24,926 nucleotides of DNA, taken from IMG/VR virus record IMGVR_UViG_3300024999_000372, positions 1 to 24,926 of that record; one strand, given 5' to 3'. The DNA is from a virus. The translations under genes were made by a program, and so were the position numbers. Positions 5,956 to 24,926 of the stretch are shown piece by piece. The notes under the pieces are model-generated. The model made no database searches. It saw only the letters and a program-made list of their open reading frames with translations, and was not told where the DNA came from. Numbering within the stretch: position 1 is the first letter of the stretch; each line of letters starts with the position of its first letter.

Positions 5956-7113
5956 TTATTTTTCTATATCTTTTTTAGTTATACATCTTAATTTTCCATA
6001 ATCATGTTTTTCTTTAAACTCAGAACAAATTATTTTACTATTATCTATATCGAATATAATCCAAGAATGACCTGTATTTAAATAATTTTTTGCTAAATTA
6101 ATTATTTCTACAATTTTATCATCTAAAGGTAATAAATCATTTTTAGAAATTAATCTAACCATTTTCCAGTCTTTATTTTTAAAATAATAATATCTTCTTA
6201 TTTCTTTTTTATCAAATTCTTCTTGTGTCATTTTACCAAAAATTACTCTTAAACCATGCCCTCCACCATCATATTCTATATAGATTTTTTCATCTAGAAA
6301 TGCAATATCTAATAATGATATTTTTGTGGCAAAATTTAATTCACCACCTAATAAATTATGTAAATATATTTGTTGTCTACTCGTTGGAGTGCTGCCATTT
6401 TTACATAAAGAGGCAATACTTTTTTCTACAGACTTTAATTTTATTTCTTCGACTTGCATAGGATTGTCACAACCAAATTTATTACGAAAAGTTTGTAAAA
6501 TTTTATTTTTAACTTCTTTATTTTTACTTGGATTATCTGTACCATATTTTACTAACCATGTTTTAATACTCTTACCTCGTATTTTATCAGTTTGTAAAGG
6601 ATAATCTACACCAAAATTATCATTATAATATTGCTTGGATTTTTCTATATAATCATCAGTTTGAAAATAAAATTCTTTTCCCCAATTAGATAAAGATGTT
6701 TCTATCTTTTTTTGTTTAACATTTTCTATTTGAGAATTATGTTCTACTCCATACTTATTTAAATTAGTTTGTTTCATTTTATCTTTAGATGATTGTAATT
6801 TTGCAACATTATTAACATTATATTTAATTAAATTACTTTCTTTAATTTTTTTACCTTTACATTCTTTACAACAGTCTTTATGTATTATACCATTTATATT
6901 TTGAGTTATATGTTTATTATAACTTTGAGAAAATTTTTTACCACAATAATCACATGTTACTTCAACATAAATTTTTGCATTTTCTCTTAAATCAAGAACA
7001 TCTATTACGATTATTTCATTATACTTCCAATTATAACCCTTTGGTTCTAAGAACTTTTTATTATTTGGTCTGCATTTTATATTAACATATTGAGGTAATA
7101 TTAACATGATCAT
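5956..7113 (-). CDS. Vsr-like homing endonuclease with six 23-residue repeats
   Basis: Free-standing endonuclease of 385 aa (383 if the second ATG at 7107, better spaced from AGGAGG, is used). Residues about 54-85 form a zinc-knuckle-like cluster (C54, C57, C81/C82, C85). Then come six tandem repeats of a Y/F/W-G-x-x-N/x-P-x-Q unit, with the aromatic at residues 98, 121, 144, 167, 190 and 213, an exact period of 23. The C-terminal nuclease (about 246-340) has QQIYLHNLLGGELN, D269 in LDIAF, E280 and H286 in IEYDGGGH, as in Vsr-like (EDxHD-type) homing endonucleases. A residue that is Asp in the paralogue at 21975-22865 is Gly here (G287). It has its own promoter, structured leader and terminator and interrupts the tail genes. 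Confidence 0.8.
   Translation of the reverse strand: MIMLILPQYVNIKCRPNNKKFLEPKGYNWKYNEIIVIDVLDLRENAKIYVEVTCDYCGKKFSQSYNKHITQNINGIIHKDCCKECKGKKIKESNLIKYNVNNVAKLQSSKDKMKQTNLNKYGVEHNSQIENVKQKKIETSLSNWGKEFYFQTDDYIEKSKQYYNDNFGVDYPLQTDKIRGKSIKTWLVKYGTDNPSKNKEVKNKILQTFRNKFGCDNPMQVEEIKLKSVEKSIASLCKNGSTPTSRQQIYLHNLLGGELNFATKISLLDIAFLDEKIYIEYDGGGHGLRVIFGKMTQEEFDKKEIRRYYYFKNKDWKMVRLISKNDLLPLDDKIVEIINLAKNYLNTGHSWIIFDIDNSKIICSEFKEKHDYGKLRCITKKDIEK
6333..6376. repeat. 44-bp exact direct repeat, copy 1
   Basis: This stretch is identical over 44 bases to 22352-22395. Both copies encode the QQIYLHNLLGGELN region at the start of the nuclease domain of the two paralogous endonucleases. The identity includes third codon positions, so it exceeds what protein conservation alone requires. 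The flanking bases differ on both sides. Confidence 0.85.
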
Positions 7114-17417: not shown

Positions 17418-18998
17418 TTACCTTTTATTTGTTTCTCCATCTCTCGCTTTAATGCCTCCATCAGTTAAATCTCCATCTGCAACTGACGGACGGCCTCCTT
17501 CGTCATCTTGACTACCAGAATTTTGATTCATACTAATAGGAGCAACCCATAATCCTTTTGATTTAATTAAATTTTCAAATTCTAAAGTAGCATTGTAATC
17601 ATTAGTATTGTGACCATTGATGCTAGTAAGTATATTTAATGATCCTCCAATAGAAGTTAATTTATATTCTCTGTCAAAAAATTCTTGCTGATTATACCAA
17701 GTTGTTTTCCAAATATTAAGTTTAAATGTATATTTTTTGCGTAAGTTTACATTGCTAATTCTATAATTAAACCAACTCTGTATTTTATCTAACATGCTAA
17801 AAACTATTGATTGGATATAAATTAAATTCTGTGCTATACCAACAGATGAATTTGTACTTGAACCTCCGAGTAATAAAGGATTTGCTCCTGCTTGCATATA
17901 TGCCATCGATTTAGCAAATTCAGCTAAATTAGTTTTTTCATTTTGTATGCTTCTAAATGGAATTTCACGTAGAGGATATGGTGATCCAGTTATAGTAACT
18001 TTATCAGAAACCCCAGAAGCTACAACATTTACCCATTGAGACACAATATCTGGTTCTACTAATGGAATTCCTGTTTCTTTATCGTGTGGAAATTCAATAT
18101 TAATGAGTTTTATTGAATCGTCCCTTGAACTCTCAATCTCCTCATCAATTAAATCATTTAACAAATATAACTCAGTAAATAATTGACTATATAATGGCAA
18201 GAAGAAAGTATCATTGTCTCCACCTAATTTAATACAACATACTTTATCACTAGATAGAGGTTGCCACTCTGGATACCTTAATCTATCTGAATTAGTTTTA
18301 TACTTATTATACAAAACCTTAAATTCATCAGGATATATTTCTTCCCATACGAATTCAGAAAGTTCACTATCCCTTAATAATTCTTCAAAATATTTAAAGT
18401 TAAATTCTACAGTAAATTGTCCTGATTTTATTGAACGTAATCTAACATATTTTATTGGCAAATCCCATAAATAAGGGAAATTACCATCATTCTTTTCAAA
18501 TCCACAGTAAGCACCATATCTAACTAAACTTTCTATAATTCTACGTCCTGTTTTTTTTATATCTATACTATCAATATATTTTCTAACAGTAGAAAACTCA
18601 TTATTAAAATTCTTTAGAAGTTTATTTATTATCTCTTGTGATTCTTCTTCAGATAATTCTTTTGATGTTTGATTAGCAATTTCTTCTTTTAATTTTTGCA
18701 TTGTAGAAAAATCAGGTTGAAGATAATTATCTAATGTAGCCATATTTGTAGTTAAATTAACTAATACTTTATACATTCCTTCAGGTGCATATAAATTATC
18801 TGATAAATCAAGTATCTCATTTTGATATTTTTGTGGATTGCCTAACCATAATTTTATTTTATCAATTGTTACATTTTTTAAATTTCTACGTTTATTTGTA
18901 AATAATCCACCTATTCTTGATAGAGAAAAGTTTTTTGCTGATTCCCATGATTTTTTTAATGAGAATAGGGTGGGGGAGAGGTTTTGTTGATTGTCCAT
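17418..18998 (-). CDS. Portal protein
   Basis: The protein is 526 aa, within the usual portal size. ATG 18998 has AAAGGAGG. Portal proteins form the dodecameric ring through which DNA enters the head and to which the terminase docks. Diagnostic stretches are APEGMYKVLVNLTTNMATLD near residue 70, KTGRRIIESLVRYGAYCGFE at about 150-170, DKVTITGSPYPLREIPFRSI in the second half, and the helix GSSTNSSVGIAQNLIYIQSI followed by SMLDKIQSWFNYRI. The C-terminal 40 residues are hydrophilic and disordered-looking (Gly, Asp, Asn). It lies directly after the terminase gene. Confidence 0.8.
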   Translation of the reverse strand: MDNQQNLSPTLFSLKKSWESAKNFSLSRIGGLFTNKRRNLKNVTIDKIKLWLGNPQKYQNEILDLSDNLYAPEGMYKVLVNLTTNMATLDNYLQPDFSTMQKLKEEIANQTSKELSEEESQEIINKLLKNFNNEFSTVRKYIDSIDIKKTGRRIIESLVRYGAYCGFEKNDGNFPYLWDLPIKYVRLRSIKSGQFTVEFNFKYFEELLRDSELSEFVWEEIYPDEFKVLYNKYKTNSDRLRYPEWQPLSSDKVCCIKLGGDNDTFFLPLYSQLFTELYLLNDLIDEEIESSRDDSIKLINIEFPHDKETGIPLVEPDIVSQWVNVVASGVSDKVTITGSPYPLREIPFRSIQNEKTNLAEFAKSMAYMQAGANPLLLGGSSTNSSVGIAQNLIYIQSIVFSMLDKIQSWFNYRISNVNLRKKYTFKLNIWKTTWYNQQEFFDREYKLTSIGGSLNILTSINGHNTNDYNATLEFENLIKSKGLWVAPISMNQNSGSQDDEGGRPSVADGDLTDGGIKARDGETNKR

Positions 18999-19064
18999 TT
19001 AAAACCTCCTTTCTGTTTATTTTGATTATATTTATTTTTGAATGTATAATATTATATTATTAGT

Positions 19065-20870
19065 TTATCGTCTTGCACGAGATGATTTATTTGCTATTGC
19101 AAAATATGATGAGGGGGATATGTTAGTGTTTTTCTTTTTCCCTGTAATATGTTTTCTTCTTAATTCTGATAAATACCATGCAAGCATAGCTATACAATAA
19201 GCTCTATCATCATATAATCTACCTACTCTATCATCCCTTAAATCATATCTATAATTACCATTTGTTCCATCATATCTATACATGTTAACTAACTCTTCTT
19301 TAGCTAAATCAATATTTTTTAAAGCTAATTCTTCATCAAAAGATAATTTATATGATTTTTCACTATCGGCAAAAGTTAAAAATCCTTTCATATCATAATC
19401 TTCAGTAAAACTTATTAAATCAAGATTTAACATTTCAATAAGTGCATCAAATAATATTTTTTTATATTTTTGTGGTGAAAGCAATTTAATTTTATCAACC
19501 GCATTTGGAAATTTTGAAATATAATCTGATGATTCAATTTTATCAATTAAACCTTTATGTTTAATTCCAGTATTATCTTTCCAATCTTCCATAAGATAAT
19601 CTGCAATATTAACACCACCACCACCACTCCCTGCATCAATACAGATAGTTTCTATATTTTCATAATCAGCAGATTGTTTACCATTATAATCTAAAATCAT
19701 TTGTTTTAAATGATTTACTTGTTCTGGTGTTCTCATTGGTGTTTTCTTTTTCTTAGCAATATCAACAAAACTTACACCATTGCATATTTCCATTTTATAA
19801 CCAATATTATCATCGAATATAATCTCTCCAACCATTGTAATAGCATTGTCATAAGATCTACTAGGATCATATGCTAATGCAAACTTTCTATTACTATCAT
19901 TAGCAAATATAGGTTTTCTTAATTGAGAATTTCTAATAAGTACAGATCTTTTAATAATTTGCTTATCAGAGCCTTCCGTAGTAAAAATATTTTTGTATTC
20001 CCTCATTCCCTTGTCGTAATTCTCACGCATAGCATTATCTATTGTTTGTTGACTAAGTAATGGAACTGGATATAATTTTCCATTAAAAGTTGCATTTATT
20101 ACTACGTCAGAATTTATATCTGCTACAAAATAATTAGAATCACCAATCATCATTTTTTGTGCATATTCTCTATATATTCTAAAAAAGAATGTATCTGTAC
20201 TTGATGCTGAAGATGCAAATATTGCTTGGTTTGGAAATTGTCTTGGAAATGTTGATACATCAATATCTCCACCAAGTCTAAAACTACTATTTTGAGTAAT
20301 AAATGGCAATGATGCAGTAAATAATTCATCTGGAGCAAAACCACTTTCGTCATAAAAATTGCAATTTGAGCGTTTAGAACGAATGTTATTAATTGCCCCA
20401 TTTAATGAATTTACTGCACTACCGTTATAAAGGTTATATTCAAAAGAACTTGGATTGTGCGTAAAACCATCTTTATTAGAAGCACTTTTTACAGTTTCAT
20501 TTAGAAAAACATCTGTTAAACCAGTAAAAGATGCTATTTCTTTTTTTGCTATTTTTTCAATTTTTGAAAACATTTCTTGACTTTGGCTTCCTGAACCAGC
20601 TAAAATATAAGCCTGAAAATTTGGTATAAGTAAACTTTTTGCCATTAAAAAAGGAGAGCCAAGAGTGGTTTTCCCTGATGATCGTCCCATACACCAAACA
20701 CAATTAGGAGTATACCAACTTTTTAAAAATACAAACTTTTGAAAATCAAGAAGATCTAATCCAAAAAATCTTTCCGCAAAACGCACGGGAAATTTTCTAC
20801 CCCAATTAACTATTTCAGCAAGTTTCAAATATCCGTCTATTTTTCTTTGTGACATAGTTTTTTTATTCAC
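19065..20870 (-). CDS. terL: Terminase large subunit
   Basis: The protein is 601 aa. GTG 20870 is chosen because AAGGTGG is 8 bases upstream. ATG 20855 is the alternative. This is the ATP-driven DNA packaging motor and headful/cos nuclease. Walker A is GRSSGKT (62-68), Walker B NFYDE (171-175). The RNase-H-like nuclease has D335 (ALAYDPS), D412 (ICIDAGSGGGG) and D554/D555 (YDDRAYC). The C-terminus is basic, as expected for contact with DNA or portal. The frame is intact, with no intron or insertion. It overlaps the upstream candidate small terminase by 8 bases, implying translational coupling, and the portal gene follows. Confidence 0.95.
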   Translation of the reverse strand: MNKKTMSQRKIDGYLKLAEIVNWGRKFPVRFAERFFGLDLLDFQKFVFLKSWYTPNCVWCMGRSSGKTTLGSPFLMAKSLLIPNFQAYILAGSGSQSQEMFSKIEKIAKKEIASFTGLTDVFLNETVKSASNKDGFTHNPSSFEYNLYNGSAVNSLNGAINNIRSKRSNCNFYDESGFAPDELFTASLPFITQNSSFRLGGDIDVSTFPRQFPNQAIFASSASSTDTFFFRIYREYAQKMMIGDSNYFVADINSDVVINATFNGKLYPVPLLSQQTIDNAMRENYDKGMREYKNIFTTEGSDKQIIKRSVLIRNSQLRKPIFANDSNRKFALAYDPSRSYDNAITMVGEIIFDDNIGYKMEICNGVSFVDIAKKKKTPMRTPEQVNHLKQMILDYNGKQSADYENIETICIDAGSGGGGVNIADYLMEDWKDNTGIKHKGLIDKIESSDYISKFPNAVDKIKLLSPQKYKKILFDALIEMLNLDLISFTEDYDMKGFLTFADSEKSYKLSFDEELALKNIDLAKEELVNMYRYDGTNGNYRYDLRDDRVGRLYDDRAYCIAMLAWYLSELRRKHITGKKKNTNISPSSYFAIANKSSRARR

Positions 20871-21963
20871 TAACTATGCCACCTTCTCTAATTTTTATTT
20901 TTAATAATCTATTTTCTTCTTCTAATTCTATATTTTTCTTTTGTAAATTTTGAAGTAAACTACGTTGTTCATTAATCATAAAAGTATAATCATTTTCATC
21001 AAATTGTAATTGTTTTAGAATACTATTATTACTAATATCTGCTACCTGTTTCATTCCTTCGCAAGTTTCTATATCAAAAAGATTTACTTCCACTTCCATA
21101 AAACCTTTTTCTTGAAGTTGTTTAATAATTCCAGATAAAGTACCTGCACCTTTAGATTTATTAGTTGCATGATTAACTGAGATTCCATTATCTTTAGCCA
21201 TAGCAAGAATAGCACGATATATTTTATCTTTAGTTTCAAATAAAGACTTAACTCCACCAACTTGACTTTGAACATTACTTATATCATTAGTCATTAATGT
21301 TAATGCTTGATTAAGTTTATCTATTTGATTAAAACTTTTAACTATTTCAATTACTATAGGCAATTTAAAAGAATCTTCAAGTGTTGATTCGTCAAGAAAA
21401 TCAACTAATGTATTATATAAATATTTTTTATCCATTGGATTATCATTTTCAAATGGATCATAACCAACCATACGAATTACATCTTCTTTATTACGTTGGT
21501 CTTCTTCATTTGTATCTAATTTTATTTCAGTCTCAAATATATTTGTATTCTTATCTGATTCTAATGGAGTTGATTCTGAAAATGTTCGAGATCCATATTG
21601 TGGCAATGAATTTACTTTTTGAAAATATATCTGTGCAATGTTACTATTACTATTATTTGCTTGTTGTTCTGCACTATAATATAAACTTGATTCAAAATAT
21701 ACATCAAGTAATCTACATAAAAAATATAGTGCAATTTTACAATCATCATATTTTTTAACCAAATATTCGTACAAATCTATACAACATTGACGGCATACAA
21801 CCATCCGTTGATTATTTGCTTTTAAAATTATTGAATTAGATTTATAAAAATCTTTATCTTGATTTTTTTCTTGTCCACAACAAACACATTTAAAAATAAC
21901 TTTTTCTTTTTTAGGTTGTGGCGTACTTGCCACAGTTTTTTTTACTCTAGGAATAAACGCCAC
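20863..21963 (-). CDS. Candidate terminase small subunit (zinc ribbon plus coiled coil)
   Basis: The protein is 366 aa. A zinc-ribbon-like cluster lies at C26/C28/C29 and C57/C60/C61 (FKCVCCG then VCRQCC). It is followed by a helical segment (YDDCKIALYFLCRLLDVYFE), an acidic middle, and a coiled coil at about 325-355 (QRSLLQNLQKKNIELEEENR). Similar zinc-finger proteins stand beside the large terminase in Clostridium-type phages, so a DNA-recognition subunit is the best guess. No helix-turn-helix is obvious. GTG 21963 lies only 1 base from AAGGAG. An in-frame ATT at 21954 is 10 bases away, so the true start is uncertain. Confidence 0.55.
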   Translation of the reverse strand: MAFIPRVKKTVASTPQPKKEKVIFKCVCCGQEKNQDKDFYKSNSIILKANNQRMVVCRQCCIDLYEYLVKKYDDCKIALYFLCRLLDVYFESSLYYSAEQQANNSNSNIAQIYFQKVNSLPQYGSRTFSESTPLESDKNTNIFETEIKLDTNEEDQRNKEDVIRMVGYDPFENDNPMDKKYLYNTLVDFLDESTLEDSFKLPIVIEIVKSFNQIDKLNQALTLMTNDISNVQSQVGGVKSLFETKDKIYRAILAMAKDNGISVNHATNKSKGAGTLSGIIKQLQEKGFMEVEVNLFDIETCEGMKQVADISNNSILKQLQFDENDYTFMINEQRSLLQNLQKKNIELEEENRLLKIKIREGGIVSE

Positions 21964-21974
21964 ACTCCTTATAT

Positions 21975-22865
21975 TTAACTTACTTTTAAATCTTTATCAG
22001 TAATTTTTCTTAATTTACCATATTTGTCATCATTAATTTTATTACCTATATTAATATTATAATGTGAATGACCTTTGTCATTAGATTTAAGCCATTCTAA
22101 AGCATTATTAAATTCTTCTAATATAATTTTATCAGAAGGTAAATAATCATAAGGTGATTTAATAAATATTTGTTTCCAACCATTTCTTTTTAATATTTGA
22201 TATCTAATAATTTCTTTTTTATTAAATTCTTTTTCATTAATATTGCCTAATTTAACTTGTAAATCATGTCCTCCACCTGAATATTCTAAAGCTATTTTAT
22301 TATTTATAAATGCTATATCTATTGCGTACCCCTTAGTATAATCATCAACATAATTTAATTCACCACCTAATAAATTATGTAAATATATTTGTTGTTTAGA
22401 ACATTCAATACCATTATTATCAGACATAGTTTTCATTGCTTTTTCTTTAATTGATTGAACTTTCATTGGATGATCTTCACCATATTTATCTAATAAAATT
22501 AATTTATTTTTTATTTTAATATCTTTTCTTTGAAATTGATTTTCTACTCCATATCTAATTAAATTTAATTCTTTATTTTTTATTGACTTACATTCATCAC
22601 AACAATCAAAAGAAATATCATTTTGTTTTCTTGCATTATATCCGTCATACCTAGTTGGATATTTTTTACCACAATAATCACATTGTACAATAACATCTAT
22701 ATGACTATTTAATGGAACATCTTCTATTCTTACTTCTAATAATGTGTTTTTAGGAACACGCATACCATCTTTTGTTTTTCTCTTAGGTAATGGATAACCT
22801 AAACTTTCATAATGTTTTATCTTTTTACCATTTAATTTTATTTCAACTGTTTTACTAACTAACAT
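21975..22865 (-). CDS. Vsr-like homing endonuclease with two 23-residue repeats
   Basis: Free-standing endonuclease of 296 aa. ATG 22865 has GGTGAT about 6 bases upstream. It is a paralogue of the endonuclease at 5956-7113. A zinc-knuckle-like cluster (CDYCGKK at C62/C65, then CCDEC at C88/C89/C92) is followed by only two repeats with the aromatic at Y105 and Y128 (RYGVENQFQ and KYGEDHPMK), 23 residues apart. The nuclease has QQIYLHNLLGGELN, D183 (AIDIAF), E194, H200 and D201 in LEYSGGGHD, then NGWKQI. All expected acidic/His residues are present. It lies just upstream of the packaging genes and ends 12 bases before the next start codon. Confidence 0.8.
   Translation of the reverse strand: MLVSKTVEIKLNGKKIKHYESLGYPLPKRKTKDGMRVPKNTLLEVRIEDVPLNSHIDVIVQCDYCGKKYPTRYDGYNARKQNDISFDCCDECKSIKNKELNLIRYGVENQFQRKDIKIKNKLILLDKYGEDHPMKVQSIKEKAMKTMSDNNGIECSKQQIYLHNLLGGELNYVDDYTKGYAIDIAFINNKIALEYSGGGHDLQVKLGNINEKEFNKKEIIRYQILKRNGWKQIFIKSPYDYLPSDKIILEEFNNALEWLKSNDKGHSHYNINIGNKINDDKYGKLRKITDKDLKVS
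22352..22395. repeat. 44-bp exact direct repeat, copy 2
   Basis: Identical to 6333-6376. It encodes the start of the nuclease domain of this endonuclease. The bases immediately outside differ on both sides. A second shorter shared stretch lies in the zinc-knuckle coding region (ACCACAATAATCACAT, near 22670 and 6940). Confidence 0.85.
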
Positions 22866-23348: not shown

Positions 23349-24041
23349 TTATTCATCATTACACATTTGAATATAATTCTTATGATTCTCCCATCCAATT
23401 TCCTTACCTTTAATATAAATGTCACCAATTAAATTAAAAATACACTGTGGACAATTATCTCTTTTTAATACTTCTTCAGTAAAATAAGCAATTAATTTTA
23501 ATTCTTCAATTTCTTCAGAACTAATATAATTCTCACATTCTTCATCACAGTCTATGCATTCACTACAACCAGGACACTTACTTTCTTCACAATCATCACA
23601 TTTATCTTCAATTTCATCTTCATCATAATCTTCAATAAAAATATCTGCAAATTCATCTAAGATTCCCTTAACTAATCTCCTATTACCGCGACTTTCTTGA
23701 ATTCTCTGTGTATATACTTCTAATAATTCATCATAGTCAAATTCTTCTACTACTTCGTCTTCACACTCTCCACAACATTCTTCCTTACTACATTCACCAC
23801 TTTCACAACAATTATCATAATCATTACATGTTTCACATTGACATTGACAATCAGCATTATCATCATCATATTCATAAGGATTTTCATCTAATTCATCAAT
23901 CTTATCTTTATTATATTCACTCAAACCACTAACAAAATCTTGATAAGTTTCAAAATCCACTTCTTCACCGTCAATATAGAACTTTGATGCTACGTGTTCA
24001 AAAGTTTCATCGTCATAATAATGTTTGGTTGTTAATTGCAT
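23349..24041 (-). CDS. Cysteine-rich acidic protein, probable multi-zinc or metal-binding
   Basis: The protein is 230 aa. ATG 24041 has AAAGGAG upstream. It has 20 cysteines. Ten fall in residues 65-93 (C65, 67, 69, 72, 78, 79, 84, 89, 90, 93), seven in 148-169 (C148, 151, 156, 159, 162, 165, 169), with C197, C200 and C227 near the end. The second cluster has regular C-x2-C, C-x4-C spacing. Between the clusters is a helical segment (QRIQESRGNRRLVKGILDEF), and the whole chain is very rich in Glu and Asp. No signal peptide is seen, so the cysteines act in the cytoplasm, where metal binding is likelier than disulfides. I know of no family. Function is unknown. It lies between the ClpP-like protease region and the packaging genes. 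Confidence 0.7.
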   Translation of the reverse strand: MQLTTKHYYDDETFEHVASKFYIDGEEVDFETYQDFVSGLSEYNKDKIDELDENPYEYDDDNADCQCQCETCNDYDNCCESGECSKEECCGECEDEVVEEFDYDELLEVYTQRIQESRGNRRLVKGILDEFADIFIEDYDEDEIEDKCDDCEESKCPGCSECIDCDEECENYISSEEIEELKLIAYFTEEVLKRDNCPQCIFNLIGDIYIKGKEIGWENHKNYIQMCNDE

Positions 24042-24110
24042 AATTTAAATTTCTCCTTTTAATATGTAAATTTATTTTGATTGATATGTTATATTAGTAT
24101 TATATATTGA

Positions 24111-24482
24111 TTACAACATATCCTTTTCTTTTAAGATTAAAGTGTTTTTAGAGCATTCGATACTAGCATTTGCATTCATACTAGTAACTTGTAAACTATG
24201 ATCAACATTCATCTTATTTAGAATTAATGTCACACTGTCATCCATACTAAGACCACTGTTAATTAACCCAGTATAGAAACCTGCATAATAACTTGCATCT
24301 TTTAATCCTGACTTAAATTCATTATTATCTAATTGAATATTATCATCTTCTACTAAGTTGTCACTAGATATTTCTAATGGTTCGAAGAATAAAATTACTT
24401 CGGAAGTATTAGAAGATAGGGGAGTGGATAAAGTTAATTCTTGTTCTTGTAAAGTTGTATTTGATTTATTATTATTTGTCAT
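24111..24482 (-). CDS. Hypothetical acidic phage protein
   Basis: The protein is 123 aa. ATG 24482 has AGGAG upstream, within 19 bases of the stop of the ClpP-like gene, so they are co-transcribed. The first 50 residues are Ser/Thr/Asn-rich and acidic, likely disordered. Residues about 60-95 form a helical segment (YYAGFYTGLINSGLSMDDSV then TLILNKMN) of a type seen in small phage proteins. No function can be assigned. Confidence 0.55.
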   Translation of the reverse strand: MTNNNKSNTTLQEQELTLSTPLSSNTSEVILFFEPLEISSDNLVEDDNIQLDNNEFKSGLKDASYYAGFYTGLINSGLSMDDSVTLILNKMNVDHSLQVTSMNANASIECSKNTLILKEKDML

Positions 24483-24501: not shown

Positions 24502-24926
24502 TTATAGAATTTTATCAACGCATCCAAAAATCATTGCTTCTTCAGGCCAAAGAGAAACATCTAAGTCAAGTTTAGTAATTTCATCTAATTTATTTTGAGT
24601 AATATCGGTATATTTTAATATTATATCTTGACATCTACGCCATAATTCCTCTAAATCTTTTAATTTTCTCTTAGATTGTTCTACTGATGTATTCCCTAAT
24701 TCATAAGATTGCACCTGATGATACAAAAATCTTGTATGTCTTTGACAAATACGTTCTGAACAAGAAATAAAAATTTTAAAAGCACCAGAAAAAATTATTC
24801 CATATGCTTTACCAATAATTCTATATCCCATATCTTTAAGTGTTTCAATAGTAGAAACAATACTTAAAGTTGCATAAACTGAACCGCCATAACTTGAAAT
24901 TTTTAATATTATAGGTTCTGCATCTT
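24502..24926 (-). CDS. ClpP-like serine protease, C-terminal part
   Basis: The gene enters from the right edge. About 140 residues are visible. From the edge it reads ILKISSYGGSVYATLSIV, matching the ClpP/S14 substrate-binding strand (I-N-S-x-GGS-V). Next is AYGIIFSGAFKIFISC, where the Ser in FSGAF aligns with the ClpP nucleophile, and FLYHQV, whose His lies 23 residues later as in phage ClpP-like proteins. The end LDLDVSLWPEEAMIFGCVDKIL-type segment carries the usual Asp and the E-E-A-x-x-x-G-x-x-D signature. Such proteases act in prohead maturation in some phages, but a second candidate maturation protease exists at 14310-15905, so the role here is open. Confidence 0.8.
   Translation of the reverse strand, partial: DAEPIILKISSYGGSVYATLSIVSTIETLKDMGYRIIGKAYGIIFSGAFKIFISCSERICQRHTRFLYHQVQSYELGNTSVEQSKRKLKDLEELWRRCQDIILKYTDITQNKLDEITKLDLDVSLWPEEAMIFGCVDKIL

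Follow-up and report, generated by a model that had tools for sequence, protein, structure and literature searches.

The SPbeta-group phages (SPbeta itself, Brevibacillus phage Sundance and the 130-kb phages of Clostridioides difficile) are the closest described systems to the locus analysed here. In these phages, a YonJ-like exonuclease/phosphoesterase, the gene in the YonG position, YonF and YonE follow one another in this order, and a protein encoded upstream has an RNA-polymerase-type PHROG match. The yonP–bhlB cluster of SPbeta is described as one message of the late-acting RNA polymerase YonO (PMC8270828). The window, i.e., the whole stretch of DNA analysed (24,926 nucleotides, IMG/VR virus record IMGVR_UViG_3300024999_000372, with no larger genome record behind it), shares this context with its relatives: YonJ-like, YonF terminase and YonE portal genes occur in order and have SPbeta-group relatives, the names YonJ and YonG being assigned partly by position. 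The difference lies in a cysteine-rich (Cys-rich) acidic gene (23349–24041, minus strand). In none of the eight other SPbeta-group records examined is there a Cys-rich gene directly before the YonG-position gene, the ends of this interval being set by position and a ninth record (L106) starting too late to count. SPbeta-like phages that carry the Cys-rich protein are known from metagenomes alone.

On the minus strand of the window, the genes run in the order ClpP-like protease, c7, Cys-rich gene, a small ORF, homing endonuclease, YonG-position gene, large terminase and portal, and further on a capsid-like gene. First of all, the ClpP-like gene (24502–24924) is cut by the window end; its part from 24831 matches Pfam CLP_protease above the cut-off and a PHROG of ATP-dependent protease. 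Next to it, c7 (24111–24482) encodes a conserved protein of 123 amino acids and of no family: neither Pfam nor NCBIfam matches it, nor does any phage in GenBank at E ≤ 1. It is 52–86% identical to the sequences of the ten phages aligned with it, with 48 invariant columns. After the Cys-rich gene come the homing endonuclease (21975–22865; phrog_12131, E 3.6e-32), the gene in the position of YonG, the small terminase (20863–21963; phrog_3314, function unknown, named by its place before the YonF-like gene), the large terminase (19065–20870; phrog_2, E 9.3e-26) and the portal protein (17418–18998; phrog_2739, E 7.2e-59). The portal has matches in 50 phage records of GenBank, none reaching 60% identity; these include SPbeta-like phages of Bacillus and Staphylococcus, phage Sundance and the 130-kb Clostridioides phages.

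This arrangement recurs in the relatives (contigs designated by L numbers). When the ORFs of the window and 31 relatives were clustered by single linkage and gene order was read from the clusters, 26 of the 27 records that have upstream genes showed the ClpP-like gene among these (the exception is L015, whose contig starts close by), and 31 of 32 showed the large terminase downstream (the exception, L020, ends first). A member of the homing-endonuclease cluster of the window lies between the Cys-rich and YonG-position genes in 27 of 32 records. L004 (10780–12029) and L005 (3155–5695) encode an identical Cys-rich protein, and the ORF of this cluster before the YonG-position gene is absent in the former and present in the latter. 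Further upstream, the genes tested in L001 or L004 encode a PhoH/PIN protein, a beta-CASP nuclease, the exonuclease/phosphoesterase that occupies the YonJ place and a protein whose PHROG match is of the RNA-polymerase type; the nuclease near the YonJ-place gene (L001, 6191–7624; same cluster in L016 and L029) is of the beta-CASP/RMMBL metallo-beta-lactamase type. In L028 (5352–6539), and also in L029 and L030, a 395-amino acid protein of NxDxxR-type repeats follows the Cys-rich gene beside a 719-amino acid protein.

The first-pass annotation had placed the gene in a phage late region, which is supported by the large terminase and portal genes that follow and by the yonP–bhlB cluster, which YonO reads in SPbeta (PMC8270828); by analogy with the transcription of that cluster in SPbeta, the Cys-rich gene would be expressed late. 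The genomic neighbourhood also allows an assembly role, that is to say, a head-assembly or packaging factor acting with the adjoining protease, the small neighbour and the terminase. The gene keeps a fixed place between the ClpP-like gene, for which the best PHROG in L016 and in L001 (where the gene is complete) is head maturation protease, and the terminase and portal genes. Such a factor is nonetheless rather improbable: the eight other SPbeta-group records have no Cys-rich gene in the corresponding place, the gene is reduced to a remnant in L077, and no ClpP-like gene is found between the apparent YonJ-like and Cys-rich genes in L081, L082, L085, L086 and L087. Zinc-binding CxxC proteins of the McsA type are partners of Clp systems, and repeated CxxC pairs and a nearby ClpP-like gene are found here likewise; however, NCBIfam gives no match for the window protein at E ≤ 0.1, and McsA is matched only by a gene next to the Cys-rich one in L081, at E 0.013 and with 15 bits where the cut-off is 210.

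In part of the other subgroup (L081, 1656–2114; L085, 4862–5344), a different small protein with CxCxxC and a PPLPKMNGSPEN block stands in the place of c7, with no ClpP-like gene before it. In L081 it has no GenBank phage match and only weak family matches, and its paralogy with the Cys-rich protein, at 7% probability, is unsupported. In L077 (6442–6531), only 29 codons of the Cys-rich gene are left before a stop, and a 128-amino acid ORF (6512–6898) that is probably a free-standing endonuclease overlaps this remnant; the truncation is likely a replacement event. In L010 (2558–3371), the frame is broken at a run of A after 19 codons, which may be a sequencing error. Because of the L077 remnant and the broken frame of L010, the gene may be dispensable, and the remnant, together with the absence of an equivalent in the eight other SPbeta-group records, suggests an accessory role.

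The Cys-rich ORF itself starts with ATG, its coding part runs from 24041 to 23352 on the minus strand, and a ribosome binding site-like sequence, AGGAGA, lies before it (24052–24057, minus strand). AGGAG-type sites also precede the relatives with a readable start; in L001, whose protein is identical to that of the window, the ORF is preceded by AAAAGGAG. As noted at first pass, the protein has 20 Cys in 230 residues and a very high Asp/Glu content: translation and counting gave exactly 20 Cys (8.7%), 72 Asp/Glu (31%) and 18 Lys/Arg, with a net charge of −54. From the Cys fraction of the other ORFs of the window (1.24%), only 2.8 Cys would be expected (P of at least 20, about 2e-11), and the Cys fraction of this ORF is the highest among 32 non-overlapping ORFs. 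The grouping of the Cys into two clusters holds for 17 of the 20, at positions 65, 67, 69, 72, 78, 79, 84, 89, 90 and 93 (cluster 1) and 148, 151, 156, 159, 162, 165 and 169 (cluster 2), and not for 197, 200 and 227, which lie outside both. Since the maximum 19-residue hydropathy mean is only 0.45, no transmembrane helix is expected. A low-complexity artefact was rejected, because the frame is open in the relatives (except L010 and the L077 remnant), silent TGT/TGC changes occur at kept Cys in both clusters, and the place of the gene is constant.

The Cys-rich proteins are a real family of phage proteins with an unusual build and a putative function. Relatives are encoded on 46 IMG/VR contigs, several of which represent one phage (e.g., L004–L008). 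The window protein as query reached 16 viral contigs and its alignment 31 in all; c7 as query added three contigs with a downstream relative (L060, L061 and L078) and L077 with its remnant; L078 as query added three more (L081–L083), and the alignment of those another nine (L085–L093). Few sites have probably been sampled, since the IMG project numbers in most of the contig names lie close together.

The statement that the protein has no recognised family agrees with Pfam (no family at E ≤ 1) and NCBIfam (none at E ≤ 0.1). When 20 members were scanned in Pfam, only weak matches of single members were obtained (best E 0.025), and none of the 13 families listed is Fer4. PHROGs matches are weak, mostly to nameless families (best E 0.012). 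Against PDB sequences, the best match of the C-terminal module profile has E 0.011 over 16 residues and that of the whole-protein profile E 1.7, and the profile of the L085 group gave six matches (best E 0.71). In GenBank phages, tblastn found no match for the window protein and L021 (E ≤ 10) or L078 (E ≤ 1), and matches at E 5 or worse for L061 and L090. A plasmid search with the relative L021 only found none, and a literature search found nothing that appeared to describe the protein. A pattern scan of bacterial and archaeal genomes gave no relatives and a search for c7 gave 0 of 398 genomes; an empty result of such a cellular search is no proof of absence if there is no positive control. 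When 391 genomes of one class were searched with profiles, A2 gave two weak matches and A9 four; all six were rejected as relatives, two being lipoprotein-like and four lying in glycosyltransferase-like frames of about 360 amino acids with 0.7–2.5% Cys.

The modules of the protein were defined from an alignment of 20 members and a second alignment of 10 with another N-terminal domain. Their order is N-domain, Cys/acid linker (cluster 1), optional hairpin, Cys cluster 2, C-terminal hairpin and optional tail. In the window (all on the minus strand), the N-terminal domain (residues 1–51, 23889–24041) consists of strands 3–9, 16–23 and 26–28 and a helix at 30–51, and is followed by the predicted disordered cluster 1 (residues 65–93, 10 Cys, 23763–23849). 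The middle helical hairpin (residues 101–137, 23631–23741), whose pattern in the alignments is FDYxELL ... ILDEFADIFI, has a loop without Cys (RGNRR) where several relatives have GCPEC. Cluster 2 (residues 148–169, 7 Cys, 23535–23600) leads to the C-terminal helical hairpin (residues 175–214, 23400–23519), with a CPQC loop at 197–200; in the first group this hairpin ends in GKxIGWND. The optional tail, which is found in L004, L012, L023, L060, L083 and L090, is guessed to be beta-alpha.

In relatives, other types stand in the place of the N-domain of the window protein. Over the whole family, the KHYYDDET..FYIDGEEVD and MNLFEAK.IYDS..FYINGNSVD types are perhaps related to each other, and a third, unrelated-looking type of about 125 residues is modelled as alpha/beta (block pLDDT 76–92 in L085). 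All three types meet the Cys clusters at one point, and the clusters are up to 92% identical in DNA. For example, when L061 is compared with nine relatives that carry the two other types, DNA identity is 66–92% past [NS]PYxY and 54–65% ahead of it; eight of the nine are at least 77% identical past the junction, and L060 only 66%. The C-terminal hairpin is common to both groups behind different N-domains (profile comparison, 96% probability, E 2e-9), and is repeated in the middle hairpin (89% probability, E 2e-6). Pairwise alignment for internal duplication was clear in one of seven proteins (L018, with 0 of 1000 shuffles as high) and found none in the other six, the window protein included. 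A changing N-domain on a constant C-terminal module points to one activity shared by all and a partner that varies. Parts are exchanged outside this gene as well: between the window and L002, the ClpP-like protein is 91% identical, the large terminase 25% and the portal 95%, so that mosaicism specific to the Cys-rich gene was rejected, and within the packaging module (window 17418–20870) the same figures for terminase and portal mark a gene replacement.

For Cys conservation, 32 sequences were compared, among them that of the window and some truncated by the end of a contig; the set excludes L010, which is broken, the fragments L022 and L025, and identical copies. Homologues lacking the Cys would have spoken against the first-pass annotation, yet all 32 hold 11–26 Cys, with net charges of −26 to −57. 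Over the pairs of the first alignment, D and E being scored as alike, Cys was kept in 2662 of 2957 comparisons in cluster 1 (acidic residues 3392/4960, the rest 2840/6203) and in 1314 of 1633 in cluster 2 (acidic 1226/1945, the rest 354/2058). That is to say, aligned linker Cys are retained in 80–90% of comparisons against 17–46% for other non-acidic residues, the former being an upper figure because alignment programs favour Cys matches. The hairpin Cys are less steady (148/330 in the middle and 708/1200 in the C-terminal hairpin): the loop Cys C197 of the window is present in every row of two alignments, and the CPxC of the C-terminal loop is replaced by CGAEL, CTCGYEL or CDCGCEM in some relatives. 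Since Cys number, spacing and hairpin loops vary, no full Cys site is common to all. Cluster 1 is under little overall constraint (pN/pS 0.90–0.98), and the modules of the gene range over 0.44–0.98 beside c7 (0.40), ClpP-like (0.78), portal (0.71), terminase (0.91) and YonJ-like (0.85), ratios that are near saturation and decide nothing because the neighbour genes mix deeply diverged types; fast diversifying selection finds no support in them.

The abundance of thiols and carboxylates raises the question of a metal store or buffer, which, metallothionein-like and without a partner, would soak up Zn, Cu or Fe during infection. The 20 Cys with CxC and CxxC, the strong acidity and a Cys number that stays high while most linker residues drift would suit it. 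Metallothioneins are small, lack ordered domains and consist of Cys to a very large extent; the window protein shares the dense CxC/CxxC Cys with them, but it is longer, with only 8.7% Cys over 230 residues, very acidic and modelled at moderate confidence in its N-domain and hairpins. Moreover, these domains, and the swapping of N-domains, would be superfluous for storage, and the Cys positions are well kept when aligned, which makes a store improbable.

Another reading starts from CSECIDCDEECE (residues 159–170, 23532–23567, minus strand), which fits C-x2-C-x2-C-x3-C-[PEG], the signature of 4Fe-4S ferredoxins. Cluster 2 would then house a [4Fe-4S] centre, a switch that responds to redox state or oxygen; the host is assumed to be anaerobic, which is a guess. 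The pattern matches nine of the 32 members (mean in shuffles 0.24), six of which carry CxxCxxCDEHCG, and CxxCxxC alone occurs in 24 of 32 (mean in shuffles 8.1); as the relatives are not independent, these counts are not probabilities. A neighbour of the L085 model in BFVD also bears the name 4Fe-4S ferredoxin-type. On the other side, the signature is missing from 23 of 32 members, the Fer4 profile is unmatched and sets of CxxC fit zinc too. An iron-sulphur protein is regarded as unlikely.

In structure prediction (AF2), the window model has a pLDDT of 58 and a pTM of 0.23, with the N-domain (block-mean pLDDT 73–85 over residues 1–40) and hairpins better and the linkers below 50, and the L085 model has a pLDDT of 68 and a pTM of 0.50. 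Linkers of such low pLDDT would fit a metal that is missing from the model. Fold searches with the window model gave at best a Z of 4.6 in VIA among 179 chains and E 0.4 in BFVD, and the L085 model a best VIA Z of 5.7, all within the range counted as common; the CsoR and ZraP rows for the window model, with scores in that range, were not taken as evidence. No fold is claimed as new, because the modules were modelled within whole chains. The L085 model resembles the predicted structures of A0A8S5PLB4 and A0A8S5R4M8 (Siphoviridae sp. ctL0q1 and ctEkS11; Foldseek E 3e-3, probability 0.99–1.00), of which one is the protein annotated as 4Fe-4S ferredoxin-type. This likeness, which is one between models, is limited by the length of the targets (177–178 amino acids), the TM-score of 0.45–0.51 of target, the rmsd of 16–19 Å over 189–227 columns and an E above 0.001, and it concerns L085 and not the window protein, whose model has no BFVD match at E ≤ 0.001. 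Sequence-profile and structure searches gave no convincing match to a characterised family, and the view that no clear precedent exists needs to be qualified by these siphovirus neighbours of L085.

The same models bear on the idea that the acidic surface mimics DNA and blocks a DNA-binding host protein of defence or housekeeping. Ocr and ArdA are acidic DNA mimics, and strong negative charge is shared with them (31% Asp/Glu and net −54 in the window, and 32 of 32 compared sequences acidic). Much of this acidity, however, lies in linkers of pLDDT below 50, which would offer no fixed phosphate-like spacing; in addition, mimicry leaves the kept Cys unexplained, and Pfam and NCBIfam offer no family match. 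A DNA mimic is accordingly considered very improbable.

What the evidence favours, at about an even chance, is a metal-thiolate-scaffolded modular protein of an SPbeta-like phage clade, probably made late, with an exchangeable N-domain on a conserved helical module. Metal binding is the best explanation because kept Cys lie in disordered-looking acidic linkers between ordered, exchangeable domains. Among the roles suggested at first pass (metal storage, a zinc-scaffolded takeover factor, a DNA mimic), which sequence does not tell apart, modular swapping together with well-kept linker Cys speaks more for a scaffold than for a bulk store or a mimic that is acidic and nothing else. The Cys of the acidic, otherwise unstructured linkers would be ligands of Zn2+ (most likely) or of an Fe-S cluster, and the bound metal would fold the linkers into compact knots. 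By these knots, the N-terminal recognition domain, which is exchangeable, may be fixed to one or two hairpins that are conserved and have a Cys-bearing loop. In this putative adaptor, choice of the partner would fall to the N-domain and a common job to the C-terminal module; this job may be head maturation/packaging or action against a host factor.

A wider proposal, which is speculative and rather unlikely, is that the locus is a polymorphic phage effector system: one slot would hold varied recognition domains on a common metal-thiolate/hairpin chassis, adjacent homing endonucleases would drive the exchange, and related phages would direct one metal- or redox-dependent activity at targets, in the host or in assembly, that differ between them. 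With this analysis, a lone odd ORF has become a family on 46 contigs whose modules are defined and whose place in the genome is fixed. This makes it testable whether phages use metal-thiolate knots to scaffold recognition domains that can be exchanged, and what purpose a polymorphic slot before the terminase genes may have in uncultured SPbeta-like phages.
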